Shown here in pieces: positions 34,826-39,023 of a stretch of 57,464 nt of DNA. A program made the translations under genes and the position numbers. The number at the start of each line of letters is the position of its first letter. Within the stretch, counting starts at the first letter, position 1. Below the pieces are notes generated by a model that had not been told where the DNA came from, did not search any database, and saw only the letters and a program-made list of their open reading frames with translations. Source of the DNA: Roseburia sp. (lineage in GTDB: Bacteria; Bacillota; Clostridia; Oscillospirales; Ruminococcaceae); assembly GCA_023666265.1 (NCBI GenBank), contig JAMPCH010000011.1, positions 1-57,464 of the forward strand. Reading direction: 5' to 3'.

Positions 34826-35998
34826 ATGGAGATCCGACTTTCCGAGCGCTCGAGCCGCTTCGGCGAAAATATCTTTAATCGGCTCGACACGATCAAATCA
34901 CAGCTTTTAAACGAGGGGAGAGCCGTTTATAACTTCTCGGTCGGCTCGCCCGACTTCCCGCCCGACGAACACGTTATGAAGGTCGTGAGCGAGGCGGCGC
35001 TCGACCCAAAAAATTACAGCTATACGCTCGGCGATATACCCGAGCTGACCGAGGCGGCTCGGCGCTGGTATAAGCGCCGCTATGGCGTAACGCTCGATAA
35101 GGACGAGATCCTCGGTGTTTACGGGTCGCAGGAGGGGATCGCCCATATCGCGCTCCCGCTCTGTGACCCCGGGGACGTGATCCTCGTCCCCGATCCGTAT
35201 TACGCGGTGTTTGAGCTGGGTCCGTTTTTTTGCGGCGCTAAGATCGTCCATTACCCCCTCTCGGCGGAGAACGGTTGGCTCCCGCGCCTCGACGAGATCC
35301 CGCCCGAGACGCGGCGGGCGGCGAAGGCGATGCTCGTCTCGTACCCCGCGAACCCGATCTGTAAGACCGCGCCCGACTCCTTCTACGACGAGCTGATCGC
35401 CTTCGCGGAGGAGAACGAGATCTTTATCATTCACGATAACGCCTATTCCGAGATCATCTACGACGGGCGGCGCGGCGGCTCTTTCCTCGCCCATAAGGGC
35501 GCGAAGGAGGTCGGCGCGGAGTTTAACTCGCTCTCTAAGACCTATAATATCCCGGGGCTTCGCGTTTCTTTTATTTTGGGAAATCGTGCGCTGATCGAGC
35601 GTTTCCGCGCCGTTCGGAGTCAGATCGATTACGGCGCTTGTCGGATCGCCCAGCTCGGCGCGATCGCCGCGCTCGACGGACCTCAGGACAGCGTCGCCAC
35701 GCATCGGAAGATCTATGAGGAGCGGCGAAACGCCCTTTGCGGCGGGTTTCGCTCGATCGGGTGGGACTTCGCCGACTCCGAGGGGACGATGTTCGCTTGG
35801 GCGAAAGTCCCCGAGGGCTTTAAAAGCTCGGAGGAATTCGTCTTAGAGCTTTGTCGTAAAACGGGCGTGATCTGTACTCCCGGGTCGAGCTTCGGCGAGC
35901 GCGGGGAGGGCTACGTGCGCTTCGCGCTCGTCCTCCCCGCCGAGCGGATCGCCGAGGCGGTCGCGGCGGTCGGGGAAAGCGGGATCTTAGCGAAATGA
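34826..35998 (+). CDS. Class I/II PLP aminotransferase, LL-diaminopimelate aminotransferase-like
   Basis: About 390 residues. Motifs: 'YNFSVGSPDFPPDEHV' (substrate entry), 'YTLGDIPELTEAARRWYKRR', 'LVSYPANPICKTAP' (Asn ring contact), 'IIHDNAYSEIIYDG' and the PLP lysine in 'FNSLSKTYNIPGLRVSFILG'. The spelling is closest to DapL-type/DAP aminotransferases of Clostridia, which feed the pathway completed by lysA elsewhere in this window, but alanine or aspartate aminotransferase activity cannot be excluded. ATG 34826 is chosen because GAAAGGA abuts the ATG at 34814. Overlaps queA by 4 bases. Confidence 0.85.
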   Translation: MEIRLSERSSRFGENIFNRLDTIKSQLLNEGRAVYNFSVGSPDFPPDEHVMKVVSEAALDPKNYSYTLGDIPELTEAARRWYKRRYGVTLDKDEILGVYGSQEGIAHIALPLCDPGDVILVPDPYYAVFELGPFFCGAKIVHYPLSAENGWLPRLDEIPPETRRAAKAMLVSYPANPICKTAPDSFYDELIAFAEENEIFIIHDNAYSEIIYDGRRGGSFLAHKGAKEVGAEFNSLSKTYNIPGLRVSFILGNRALIERFRAVRSQIDYGACRIAQLGAIAALDGPQDSVATHRKIYEERRNALCGGFRSIGWDFADSEGTMFAWAKVPEGFKSSEEFVLELCRKTGVICTPGSSFGERGEGYVRFALVLPAERIAEAVAAVGESGILAK

Positions 35999-37035
35999 CG
36001 GAAAAAGAAACGCTTTATCGCTCGGATTTTTATTACGACCTCCCCGAGGAGAGGATCGCTCAGACCCCGCTCGAGCCACGCGACAGCGCCCGCCTTATGA
36101 CGGTCGACCGCGCGAGCGGCGCGATCGGTCACCGCCGATTTTTTGAGCTTCCCGACCTTTTAAAAAAAGGCGACCTCCTCGTCCTCAACGACTCTAAGGT
36201 CTTCCCCGCGCGGCTCTACGGCGTGAAGCGCCCGACGGGCGTCCCCTGTGAGGTGCTGCTGCTCAATCGGCGGGAGGAGACGGTCTGGGAGGCGCTCGTC
36301 CGCCCGGGACGGCGGCTCAAAAAGGGAACACAGATCGATTTCTCGGAGGAACTGAGCGCCGAGATCGTCGACAAGGTCGAGGGCGGTAACCGCCTCGTAA
36401 AATTTCGCTATGAGGGCGTTTTTTTTGACATCCTCGATCGGATCGGGAAAATGCCCCTCCCCCCCTACATCACCGAAAAGCTCGCGGACAACGCCCGCTA
36501 TAATACGATCTACTCGAATGAGCTCGGCTCCGCCGCCGCGCCGACGGCGGGGCTTCATTTTACGGAGAACGTCTTCGCGGGGCTAAGGGAAAAGGGCGTG
36601 GACACGGCTTTTGTGACCCTCCACGTCGGTCTCGGGACGTTTCGCCCCGTCAAGGAGGAGAAGATCCTCGACCATAAGATGCACGCCGAGCATTATACCG
36701 TCCCCGCCGAGACCGCCGAAAAGCTCCGCGCCTGCCGCGCGCGGGGCGGTCGGGTCATCGCGGTCGGTACGACGAGCTGTCGGACGCTCGAGGCGACGGT
36801 AAAAAAATACGGCGAGGTCGTCCCCTGTACCGAGGACACCGATATTTTCATCTACCCGGGCTATCGGTTCGGCGCGATCGACGGCTTGATCACGAACTTT
36901 CACCTCCCCGAGAGTACGCTGATCATGCTCGTGAGCGCCTTCCTCGGGCGCGAGCGGACGCTCGCCGCCTATGAAACGGCGATCCGCGCGGATTATCGAT
37001 TTTTCAGCTTCGGCGACGCGATGATGATCTTGTAA
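35995..37035 (+). CDS. queA: S-adenosylmethionine:tRNA ribosyltransferase-isomerase QueA
   Basis: 346 residues. It makes epoxyqueuosine from preQ1-tRNA using SAM as ribosyl donor. Typical stretches: 'FYYDLPEERIAQTPLEPRDS', 'LLVLNDSKVFPARLYG', 'GKMPLPPYI', 'SAAAPTAGLHFTE', 'FVTLHVGLGTFRPVK' and 'DGLITNFHLPESTLIMLVSA'. Full length. Its last 28 bases (37006-37033) are exactly repeated at 37626-37653 beyond a toxin-antitoxin cassette, and either copy of the repeat would give the same C-terminus DAMMIL before a stop. Confidence 0.95.
   Translation: MTEKETLYRSDFYYDLPEERIAQTPLEPRDSARLMTVDRASGAIGHRRFFELPDLLKKGDLLVLNDSKVFPARLYGVKRPTGVPCEVLLLNRREETVWEALVRPGRRLKKGTQIDFSEELSAEIVDKVEGGNRLVKFRYEGVFFDILDRIGKMPLPPYITEKLADNARYNTIYSNELGSAAAPTAGLHFTENVFAGLREKGVDTAFVTLHVGLGTFRPVKEEKILDHKMHAEHYTVPAETAEKLRACRARGGRVIAVGTTSCRTLEATVKKYGEVVPCTEDTDIFIYPGYRFGAIDGLITNFHLPESTLIMLVSAFLGRERTLAAYETAIRADYRFFSFGDAMMIL
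37006..37033 (+). repeat. 28-bp direct repeat, left copy (inside queA 3' end)
   Basis: Begins AGCTTCGGCGACGCG and ends GATGATCTTGT; identical at 37626-37653, 620 bp away. It looks like an attachment-site duplication around the first toxin-antitoxin pair. Confidence 0.9.
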
Positions 37036-37041
37036 AAGCGA

Positions 37042-37070
37042 TTGACAGGATCGAGTGATCGCTGTATAAT
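37042..37070 (+). promoter_or_regulatory. Consensus promoter of toxin-antitoxin cassette 1
   Basis: TTGACA (37042-37047), 17 bp, TATAAT (37065-37070). It begins 9 bases after the left direct repeat, so the cassette brings its own promoter. Confidence 0.92.
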
Positions 37071-37110
37071 GATAGAGAAGGATCGATCCTATCTTTTGAG
37101 GAACACATAT

Positions 37111-37380
37111 ATGAACAATATATCCATAAAATATTCTAAAGACGCAATAAAATTTCTTTCAAAGCTGGATAAAAGATCCGTAGCGCGTATCAGAAACGCG
37201 ATCGCGGGACTCACTCGAGAACCGCCGATCGGAGATATAAAAACAATGCAGGGTTACGGCGACGGTCGGAAACGGCTTCGTGTCGGCTCTTGGAGAATTA
37301 TTTACCGACAAGATCGCGAGGGAACGGTTGAGATCATATTAGTGATCGATATTGGCAATCGCGGAGATATATATAAATAG
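37111..37380 (+). CDS. RelE-family toxin (cassette 1)
   Basis: 89 residues: 'ISIKYSKDAIKFLSKLDKRS' (N-terminal strand and helices), then 'DIKTMQGYGDGRKRLRVGSW' and 'RIIYRQDREGTVEIILVIDI', the RelE/ParE-type core with basic residues for ribosome-dependent mRNA cleavage. ATG 37111 is preceded by GAGGAACAC; the longer frame begins in the promoter's -35 and is rejected. Toxin-first order with the antitoxin 22 bases downstream. AT-rich relative to queA. Confidence 0.85.
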   Translation: MNNISIKYSKDAIKFLSKLDKRSVARIRNAIAGLTREPPIGDIKTMQGYGDGRKRLRVGSWRIIYRQDREGTVEIILVIDIGNRGDIYK

Positions 37381-37402: not shown

Positions 37403-37627
37403 ATGTCAAGTATTGCGCTTGAGGCGGCACGCTTGATCGATACCCTACCCGAGGAGGATAAGGTATTGGCTTACGAATATGTCAAAAAATTGGTTCTCGC
37501 TTGGGACCCCGATTTTACCAAAGTGACCGCCGAAGAGGCAAAGAAAATAGAAGCGGCGGAAAACAGCGGTTTTATCGATGAAGAGGATATTGATTGGGAG
37601 CATATCGGGACGGGAGAACGTTTTTAG
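37403..37627 (+). CDS. Antitoxin of cassette 1
   Basis: 74 residues, acidic. 'LEAARLIDTLPEEDKVLAYE' and 'YVKKLVLAWDPDFTKVTAEE' form helices seen in clostridial antitoxins paired with RelE toxins, and the C-terminal 'SGFIDEEDIDWEHIG' would wrap the toxin. No clear DNA-binding motif is visible. A strong AGGAGGTGTTTTT ribosome site. Its stop TAG overlaps the start of the right 28-bp repeat. Confidence 0.75.
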   Translation: MSSIALEAARLIDTLPEEDKVLAYEYVKKLVLAWDPDFTKVTAEEAKKIEAAENSGFIDEEDIDWEHIGTGERF

Positions 37628-37653
37628 CTTCGGCGACGCGATGATGATCTTGT
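37626..37653 (+). repeat. 28-bp direct repeat, right copy
   Basis: Exact copy of 37006-37033. Followed by GATCTT..., which would supply a TGA stop in the queA frame, so this is probably where queA ended before the cassette arrived. Confidence 0.9.
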
Positions 37654-37686: not shown

Positions 37687-37715
37687 TTGACAACGAGCGA
37701 TATTTCGGATATAAT
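37687..37715 (+). promoter_or_regulatory. Consensus promoter of toxin-antitoxin cluster 2
   Basis: TTGACA (37687-37692), 17 bp, TATAAT (37710-37715). The -10 region lies between CGGAT and ATCCG arms, a possible operator for the HTH antitoxin. Confidence 0.9.
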
Positions 37716-37755
37716 AAATATAGGATAAATCCGATTTTTTGAGGAGATAACATCC

Positions 37756-38109
37756 ATGCAGGATTTTGAAATTATCTTTTACGATAAACCCGACGGAACC
37801 GAGCCGGCAAGAGAATTTATTTTATCACTTGATAAAAAGATGAAAGCCCGAATGATAAAATTGGTCGATATGCTTGAGAAAAACGGTTCTGAACTTCGAA
37901 TGCCGTATTCCAAACACATTGACGACGGAATTTTTGAATTGAGGGCAAAGGTCGGCTCAGACACTTCTCGTGTTTTATACTTTTTTATAATCGGAAGTAA
38001 GGCGGTATTAACAAACGGCTTTATTAAAAAAAAGCAGAAAACCCCTCAAAGCGAGATCAAACTCGCAAAGAAATATCGCAATGAATTTTTGAATAGGGAG
38101 GAAAAATAA
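37756..38109 (+). CDS. HigB-like toxin (phage-derived Gp49-type)
   Basis: 117 residues. 'FEIIFYDKPDGTEPAREFIL' at the N-terminus, 'LRMPYSKHIDDGIFELRAKV' in the middle and 'RVLYFFIIGSKAVLTNGFIK' then KKKQKTPQSEI match the HigB/Gp49 family of ribosome-dependent RNases. The HTH antitoxin gene starts 1 base after its stop, the usual higBA order. AT-rich. Confidence 0.88.
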   Translation: MQDFEIIFYDKPDGTEPAREFILSLDKKMKARMIKLVDMLEKNGSELRMPYSKHIDDGIFELRAKVGSDTSRVLYFFIIGSKAVLTNGFIKKKQKTPQSEIKLAKKYRNEFLNREEK

Positions 38110-38110
38110 T

Positions 38111-38542
38111 ATGACAAAATTCCGAGATTTTTTAAACGAACAACTGAAAGACGAAGGATTTAGAAAAGAATACGAAGCGCTTGAACCGGAATTTGCTGTC
38201 ATTCAAGCAATGATCGACGCGAGAAGATCAACGGGTCTTACGCAAAAAGAGCTGTCCGAACGCACCGGGATCGCGCAGGGCGACATCAGTAAGCTCGAGA
38301 ACGGGAGCGCGAACCCCTCTCTCCGAACGCTCCAAAGGCTTGCCGAGGGGCTGGATATGCGGCTAAAGGTCGAGTTTATCCCCTTAAAGCGCGCGTTAAA
38401 AAATAAAAACGGTTTGTCCGAAATGCGGGCGGAGATCCCCAACGCCCTGACCGAAAAAGAAATGATCGCCGCGGAAAAAAGAGAAAATATGTACGGACCT
38501 TTTGACACGGTGGAAGCCCTCATGGAGGCGCTGGATGCTTAA
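38111..38542 (+). CDS. Hybrid antitoxin: HigA-type HTH fused to RelB/DinJ-type C-terminus
   Basis: 143 residues. Residues 1-92 are a complete HigA antitoxin: helix, then XRE helix-turn-helix 'STGLTQKELSERTGIAQGDI' (about 40-59) and 'PSLRTLQRLAEGLDMRLKVE', ending where HigA normally ends (FIPL). Residues about 101-143 instead read as the C-terminus of a RelB/DinJ antitoxin: 'RAEIPNALTEKEMIAAEKRE' followed by MYGPFDTVEALMEALDA. HigB is encoded upstream and a YafQ-type toxin downstream, with an 8-base overlap. Base composition shifts from AT-rich to GC-rich near 38260, suggesting recombination between two loci. It may neutralise both toxins; this is inferred. Confidence 0.75.
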   Translation: MTKFRDFLNEQLKDEGFRKEYEALEPEFAVIQAMIDARRSTGLTQKELSERTGIAQGDISKLENGSANPSLRTLQRLAEGLDMRLKVEFIPLKRALKNKNGLSEMRAEIPNALTEKEMIAAEKRENMYGPFDTVEALMEALDA

Positions 38543-38813
38543 AATCGAATACAGAGGTCAATTTAAAAAGGATTATAAGCTCGCGATAAAAAGAGGCTGT
38601 GATCCGAATGAAATGATCAAGGTGCTGAATCTGCTCGTAAACGAGCAGCCCTTACCCGAGAAATACAGGGATCACGCTCTTACGGATTCCAAAAATTATA
38701 AAGGTATGAGAGAATGCCACATTCAGCCCGATTGGCTTTTGGTTTATAAGATCGAGCATAAGCTCTTGATCTTGGAGCTGATCAGAACCGGCACGCACAG
38801 CGACCTGTTTTAA
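38535..38813 (+). CDS. YafQ-family toxin
   Basis: 92 residues: 'MLKIEYRGQFKKDYKLAIKR' followed by GCDPNEMIKVLNLLVNEQPL, 'YRDHALTDSKNYKGMRECHI' and 'QPDWLLVYKIEHKLLILELI' then RTGTHSDLF. These are the hallmarks of YafQ/RelE-type endoribonucleases (D...L...G..E.HI.PDWLL.Y). ATG 38535 overlaps the hybrid antitoxin end by 8 bases. In known loci YafQ pairs with a DinJ antitoxin, which here survives only as the C-terminal part of the upstream gene. Its stop TAA leads straight into TIR element copy 4. Confidence 0.88.
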   Translation: MLKIEYRGQFKKDYKLAIKRGCDPNEMIKVLNLLVNEQPLPEKYRDHALTDSKNYKGMRECHIQPDWLLVYKIEHKLLILELIRTGTHSDLF

Positions 38814-38986
38814 GGCAACACCGCACAATTACCGGCTACGCCTTTGCCGTCCCATCGACAGCCATCTTTTCCGCCATATTGCACAGAATTTTTTTGAAAG
38901 GCGTCAGCCTTCCTGCAAAAATCCTGTACAATCTGACGAAAAATCTGACTGCCGCTGGAACGACAATAATTGTGCGGTGTAGCCTT
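38812..38986 (+). mobile_element. TIR element copy 4 (175 bp)
   Basis: Flanked TTTT-AAGGC ... GCCTT-AATC; ends AAGGCAACACCGCACAAT / ATTGTGCGGTGTAGCCTT pair perfectly except one base. Internal stem has one mismatch relative to copy 3. It starts within the stop codon of the YafQ gene, sense orientation. Confidence 0.92.
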
Positions 38987-39023
38987 AATCGATCCCCCTA
39001 CCGCTAAAAGAGAGGAAACCGCT

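Follow-up and report, generated by a model that had tools for sequence, protein, structure and literature searches.

Type II antitoxins are widely described as proteins made of a DNA-binding part and a toxin-binding part. The closest solved relatives of the first toxin and of the antitoxin HTH part in the locus described here belong to the HigBA module of S. pneumoniae (6AF3, 6AF4), but the HigA chain of that module has 97 residues, which leaves no room for a DinJ tail, and the module contains no second toxin. The closest solved relatives of the second toxin, and of a stand-alone DinJ from a same-genus locus (L017), are those of E. coli DinJ-YafQ (4ML0, 4Q2U), in which DinJ keeps the RHH DNA-binding half that is replaced by a HigA HTH in the hybrid antitoxin of the present locus.

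A C-terminal HigA extension that recruits a third partner is presented in passages of PMC5105189 for the toxin-antitoxin-chaperone HigBA of M. tuberculosis, where ChAD tails were also moved between antitoxins; that third partner is a chaperone, whereas the third gene here is yafQ, a second toxin. Excerpts of PMC5848175 describe B. subtilis SR6 as a single antitoxin tied to both yonT and yoyJ, two toxin genes, but SR6 is a type I antisense RNA and not a toxin-binding protein. In the sections of PMC4803016 and PMC11980606 dealing with YefM-YoeB, other mixed pairs and RelE/ParE fusions, antitoxin families are swapped between toxin families and gene fusion is frequent, but the cases given join one antitoxin to one toxin or fuse a toxin with an antitoxin, and no antitoxin-antitoxin fusion serving two toxins appears there. 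The Panacea domain, according to extracts of PMC8832971, is one antitoxin domain family serving many toxin families and works by partner swapping between proteins, whereas here two toxin-binding parts would lie in one protein. Searches of open-licence PMC papers, in which text of PMC7192599 and PMC2701414 was also covered, brought up no HigA-DinJ fusion, nor any type II antitoxin that combines two toxin-binding parts to serve a toxin on either side. A preliminary description of this DNA had likewise known of no system with this arrangement. The locus is a variant of type II toxin-antitoxin modules that departs from the usual form of both HigBA and DinJ-YafQ.

The window, meaning the whole stretch of DNA that was analysed, comprises 57,464 nt of the forward strand of contig JAMPCH010000011.1 (assembly GCA_023666265.1, Roseburia sp.). 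The three-gene set within it consists of the following genes:

37756..38109, + strand: higB-like toxin gene, 117 aa (Gp49 / RelE-ParE superfamily, PF05973, E 2.6e-25; closest solved relative HigB of S. pneumoniae, PDB 6AF3_A, E 6.6e-10)
38111..38542, + strand: hybrid antitoxin gene, 143 aa (HTH_3, HigA protein alignments, DinJ profile)
38535..38813, + strand: yafQ-like toxin gene, 92 aa (PF15738, E 4.2e-33; closest solved relative E. coli YafQ, 4ML0_B, E 1.5e-22; 89% identity to the YafQ of L017)

All three frames are open and were located as genes that overlap or lie 1 base apart, as the preliminary description had it: higB ends at 38109, 1 base before the antitoxin ATG at 38111, and the yafQ ATG at 38535 lies upstream of the antitoxin stop (38540-38542), giving an overlap of 8 bases. 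An 8-base overlap with yafQ was found in 13 of 35 distinct antitoxin-position ORFs, window included, with ORF starts extrapolated from tblastn; 3 further yafQ loci yielded no such ORF. The order of HigBA genes is present, with the toxin gene 5' of the HTH_3 antitoxin gene. The set is preceded by queA (35995-37035), with a ParE-like pair in between. On the 3' side lies an element of ~180 bases (38810-38988) with 22-base inverted ends, whose left arm takes in the yafQ stop codon; it is assigned to a MITE-like family because at least 39 further copies are present in the genome at 89-98% (40 of 108 candidates scored).

The antitoxin is a two-part protein in which the following segments were delimited:

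38111..38389, + strand: HigA part, residues 1-93, a complete HigA (HTH_3 at residues 37-83, E 8.7e-13; up to 91% identity to a 94-aa HigA)
38390..38419, + strand: junction, residues 94-103, parentage uncertain (gap between the end of HigA and the start of the DinJ match)
38420..38539, + strand: DinJ/RelB C-terminal part, residues 104-143, RHH half absent (profile, DNA alignment to L017, tail alignment)

The HigA part is up to 91% identical to proteins of ~94 residues that end at this point (protein search, best 120 of 4016 matches), and HigA similarity stops at residue 92-95 in the closest matches. Its closest solved relative is the 6AF3 HigA of S. pneumoniae (E 1e-07), and PADLOC returned 19 weak families centred on the HTH. 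A DinJ profile built from 23 DinJ-type proteins fits residues 104-143 of the hybrid only, through model positions 50-92 of 94 (21.4 bits), and residues 107-143 are 78, 62, 51 and 57% identical to the tails of four same-genus DinJ proteins. At the DNA level, a single alignment of 38420-38814 to the dinJ-yafQ of L017, with few gaps of 1-2 bases, continues into yafQ. Stand-alone DinJ proteins were Pfam RelB members in all three cases tested, and that of L017 matches solved DinJ (4ML0_A); the hybrid gave no match to Pfam RelB (PF04221) at E 1, and as judged from its sequence the RHH DNA-binding half of DinJ is missing. For junction residues 94-103, either parent could be the source. The agreement of HTH_3, HigA alignments and DinJ profile bears out the proposed make-up of a complete HigA followed by a RelB/DinJ tail.

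Such a tail might instead have been a feature of ordinary long HigA proteins, and the HigA relatives examined were found to lack it. In 80 of 80 species-genome loci (L037-L116, retained from 132 confirmed loci), the reading frame of HigA stops 87-110 residues past the start of the match. The present antitoxin exceeds the usual HigA length, at 143 aa with the further DinJ part at 104-143. When the DinJ profile was run on 136 HigA-type proteins, 135 had no match at E 1 or better and the hybrid was the sole match.

The change in base composition within the gene, which had been taken as a sign of recombination, did not hold up as a marker of the join. GC3 rises from 0.30 over codons 1-30 to 0.77 over codons 41-70, a step that falls inside the HTH, ~50-60 codons before the junction; at the junction itself GC3 is flat (0.60-0.67), and base composition was ruled out as a junction marker. 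Over 38111-38386, pS to L037 is 0.39 for codons 1-40 and above 1 (saturated) for codons 41-92. Given the GC3 rise and the change in pS, a mosaic within higA itself is possible.

Both toxin frames are full length. In NCBIfam, YafQ scores above cut-off (TIGR00053, TIGR02385) and higB has no more than a sub-threshold match; PADLOC gave one family for HigB, NsnC (E 5.8e-10), and none for YafQ. A disrupted active site in either toxin was sought as counter-evidence to the hybrid reading: all seven YafQ residues checked, a list taken from E. coli YafQ, are in place, and HigB was examined through its alignment to 6AF3_A only. Values of pN/pS were 0.063/0.865 for yafQ and 0.112/0.603 for the antitoxin tail against L017, and 0.095/0.792 for higA and 0.115/0.739 for higB (last 89 codons) against L037. 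Coding divergence is mostly synonymous, as estimated from these comparisons, and the figures span time before the fusion too.

YafQ-like toxins were also found behind short ORFs of 71-91 aa with no recognised RHH at six loci, one in the same genome (L002) and five others (L186, L188, L190, L195, L196). Pfam gave no match for five of these six short antitoxins and one match below cut-off for the sixth. Because such RHH-less ORFs precede other YafQ-like toxins, natural YafQ antitoxins seem to differ in their N-terminal part.

The unfused tandem higB-higA-dinJ-yafQ is present in three loci of relatives. At L055 the order is queA-higB-higA-dinJ-yafQ-tgt. The same-genus locus L037/L004 carries higB-higA-dinJ-yafQ with an internal stop in yafQ. 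In one genome of the same family (L124/L145), a queA-like frame is followed by parE-like, a 74-aa-like antitoxin, higA, higB, higA, dinJ and yafQ. The same-genus locus L017 reads queA-dinJ-yafQ. Across the 80 species loci, a YafQ match lay near higA in 6, and the needed order was found in 2 (L037, L055). Because relatives keep both toxins with separate antitoxins, the locus appears to be the product of a merger between two adjacent toxin-antitoxin pairs. The likeliest origin, as reconstructed from these loci, is a ~0.3 kb deletion in a higB-higA-dinJ-yafQ tandem adjoining queA, which would have removed the higA stop, the spacer and the RHH part of dinJ and brought yafQ under hig promoter control. 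By the coordinates of L055, removing ~270-300 bases between the final higA codons and mid-dinJ would yield the fused frame. The unfused parents seen in relatives are better evidence of origin than base composition.

A search for other XRE-HigA plus RelB/DinJ proteins and for the toxin genes beside them had been proposed. It recovered the unfused parents with both toxins, but no second fusion in the genomes or among the best-listed proteins. Overlapping samples of 99, 71, 394 and 391 genomes contained no second fusion, the latter two scored at up to 10 candidates per genome. Apart from the window's own, no match starting in the HigA part (E 1e-12 or better) reached past query residue 117, and the one that reached it crosses a stop. 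No other HigA-DinJ protein was present in the best 120 of 4016 or the best 120 of 4955 protein matches, and a search with residues 92-143 alone returned only the query among 2 candidates. Four HigA loci on viral contigs match the hybrid, none of them fused (0/4), and the hybrid itself occurs on one contig in a set of 5.8 billion proteins. Since the fusion was seen in one genome only, a recent event, a short-lived intermediate or a false join is possible.

A protein of 132 aa found on 11 contigs (P0131) is a HigA whose C-terminal extension, ~40 residues long, differs in sequence, and is perhaps a second tail-bearing HigA. As a second hybrid it was rejected (fusion profile A7), the tail being not DinJ-like and having no relative among 9657 ORFs of the collected sequences. 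No full-length match to it was found in viral contigs or in 398 genomes of the phylum.

The three-gene set is preceded by the following sites:

37687..37715, + strand: predicted promoter of the three-gene set, TTGACA-17-TATAAT (12/12 consensus match)
37719..37736, + strand: presumed HigA operator, TATAGGATAAATCCGATT (best of 57447 window positions, score 21.3 vs 10.35 for the next)

The promoter scan gave 9 promoter-like sites against a shuffle mean of 3.6, and 2 of the 9 are perfect. The palindrome consensus TATAGGATATATCCTATA recurs upstream of the higB of relatives: a site with at least 12 of 16 matches was present in 79 of 108 distinct higB upstream regions, against a mean of 1.5/108 in 20 mononucleotide shuffles. 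Window copies, regions with a HigB match starting after residue 25 and regions with fewer than 130 bases upstream were left out of the 108, and the operator profile was built on 98 sites. A HigA-type operator likely precedes higB and the three-gene set, because 37719-37736 ranks top with the profile of the relatives' palindrome. On the same reading of the protein, the RHH part, the expected regulator of a dinJ-yafQ pair, is gone. The claim of one promoter and a single DNA-binding domain is backed at sequence level by the perfect consensus of the predicted promoter and by an HTH with the RHH absent.

The main reading, to which a probability of about two in three is assigned, is that the HigA-DinJ fusion protein neutralises both HigB and YafQ and represses the predicted shared promoter. 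In E. coli DinJ-YafQ, the antitoxin tail wraps around the toxin and blocks it. The HigA part of the hybrid would dimerise on the presumed operator at 37719-37736 and would bind HigB as other HigA proteins do, while the DinJ tail would wrap and block YafQ as in the E. coli pair. Loss of the hybrid, through a protease or through loss of the locus, would then free two RNases at once. We infer the neutralisation of both toxins by one protein from the two parts of the antitoxin and its flanking genes. The four tails of the YGPFD type, the window aside, precede the four YafQ proteins closest to that of the window (89, 74, 73 and 64%), among 34 distinct non-window antitoxin-position ORFs; tail and YafQ are a matched pair, a pairing that common descent of neighbours also explains.

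The antitoxin and YafQ were also modelled as a single chain with AlphaFold. Two runs gave pTM values of 0.41 and 0.37 and no confident interface; pLDDT was below 50 over most of the tail, and confidence was moderate for the fold of the HTH and of YafQ. The alignments consisted of 52 rows (A6: 24 identical query copies, 14 HigA, 14 YafQ) and 54 rows (A10: 28 query copies, 10 antitoxin, 12 YafQ, 4 tails).

It is unlikely that the locus is a half-dead remnant, with a fusion that still counteracts just one toxin, the second being silent, weak or restrained by a different antitoxin. The single occurrence would fit a young or passing state, and toxin decay does occur at such tandem loci, since the yafQ of the unfused tandem in G055 has an internal stop; in the window, however, both toxin frames are full length and each matches its family. 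No match to the tail lies outside the locus among the 4 listed of 5 own-genome matches to the hybrid, and a second YafQ-like toxin of the same genome (C44, 54%) is preceded by an ORF of its own. Both parents adjoin queA in relatives, which makes a false join conceivable, with reads of two strains, one carrying higBA and one dinJ-yafQ, each beside queA, brought together by assembly or strain mixture. The one contig in the protein set would suit such an artefact, but the two parts meet in frame and the 8-base yafQ overlap seen in 13/35 antitoxin-position ORFs (window included) is preserved, the genome has a rated completeness of 99.8% and contamination of 0.2%, and an artefact is considered quite improbable.

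That the tail is an ordinary long-HigA extension, or one of the chaperone-addiction (ChAD) type rather than a YafQ antitoxin, is extremely improbable. HigA extensions of other kinds do exist, as in P0131 and, according to passages of PMC5105189, in M. tuberculosis HigA1 with its ChAD tail; the present tail nevertheless matches the DinJ profile, is 51-78% identical to DinJ tails and lies in one DNA alignment that runs into yafQ, and a chaperone was found in none of the 5 ORFs scanned around the antitoxin (up to 38990). Two antitoxins might also be made from one gene, since an in-frame ATG at residue 105, where the DinJ part begins, could yield the DinJ tail as a separate product in addition to the full-length hybrid. 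By eye, no purine-rich ribosome site lies just 5' of that ATG, and this reading is very unlikely.

Between queA and the three-gene set lie the following features:

37042..37070, + strand: predicted promoter of the ParE-like pair, TTGACA-17-TATAAT (12/12 consensus match)
37079..37090, + strand: operator-like palindrome before the ParE-like pair, AGGATCGATCCT (promoter plus AGGATNNATCC pattern; GGATNNATCC in closest relatives)
37111..37380, + strand: ParE/RelE-like toxin gene (ParE_toxin, E 2.3e-08)
37403..37627, + strand: 74-aa ORF at the antitoxin position of the ParE-like pair (relatives of the ORF follow ParE relatives)

The 74-aa ORF matched no Pfam or NCBIfam family above cut-off and has no recognised DNA-binding domain. 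The combination of TTGACA-17-TATAAT with AGGATNNATCC 2-12 bases after it has exactly two occurrences in 2.81 Mb, before higB and before the ParE-like pair. From 25 same-genus ParE-like loci fetched, window included, 22 had a usable match; GGATNNATCC lay upstream in 1 of these 22, that of the window, the other 21 being at most 52% identical, and a small ORF lay downstream in 14 of those 21. The notion that the ParE-like operator is unique to the window was rejected as too narrow, since it rested on these 21 distant loci, and closer relatives outside the genus have the operator: L145 (76%) and L138 (79%), the closest ParE relatives compared, both carry GGATNNATCC at their promoters. A HigA-type gene lies a few bases 3' of the 74-aa-like antitoxin in L145, overlaps the antitoxin in L137 (no ParE match) and appears as a HigA match beside the ParE-like pair in L138; in the window, no HigA-type gene follows the 74-aa ORF. 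The ParE-like toxin, 74-aa antitoxin and HigA-type repressor of L145 (994-1785), L138 and L137 resemble a module of three genes that carries a HigA-type operator.

The flanks of the ParE-like pair carry a repeat, the 33 bases of the queA 3' end (37001-37033) recurring at 97% at 37621-37653, where the 74-aa ORF takes its final codons and its stop from them. The promoter and ribosome-site regions that follow the two copies also resemble each other. By its sequence, the repeat resembles the trace of an insertion or recombination event at the end of queA.

The ParE-like promoter may also be repressed by the hybrid, because the operator core remains while the pair's own HigA-type gene is missing here. 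One antitoxin might then serve three toxins, neutralising HigB and YafQ while its single HTH represses its own and the ParE-like promoter. This wider reading is tentative and somewhat doubtful. It gains weight because the relatives' ParE-like pair has both an operator and its own HigA-type gene; against it, the ParE site is absent from the best 14 matches of the 18-base operator profile, and a different HTH protein of the genome could be active at that site. If the reading is true, a toxin-antitoxin island would have been caught as it collapses to a single regulatory unit.

As a natural case of two adjacent antitoxins joined in frame, whose unfused parents are seen in relatives, the locus makes direct tests possible. 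It offers a rare natural test of how addiction modules combine, in which one protein would have to restrain two likely RNA-cutting toxins. It raises the questions of whether one protein can be the antitoxin for two unrelated toxins at once, and whether binding of one toxin alters repression or the neutralisation of the other. It also asks whether adjacent modules merge by deletion because losing either toxin-binding part kills the cell, while keeping both spares it.
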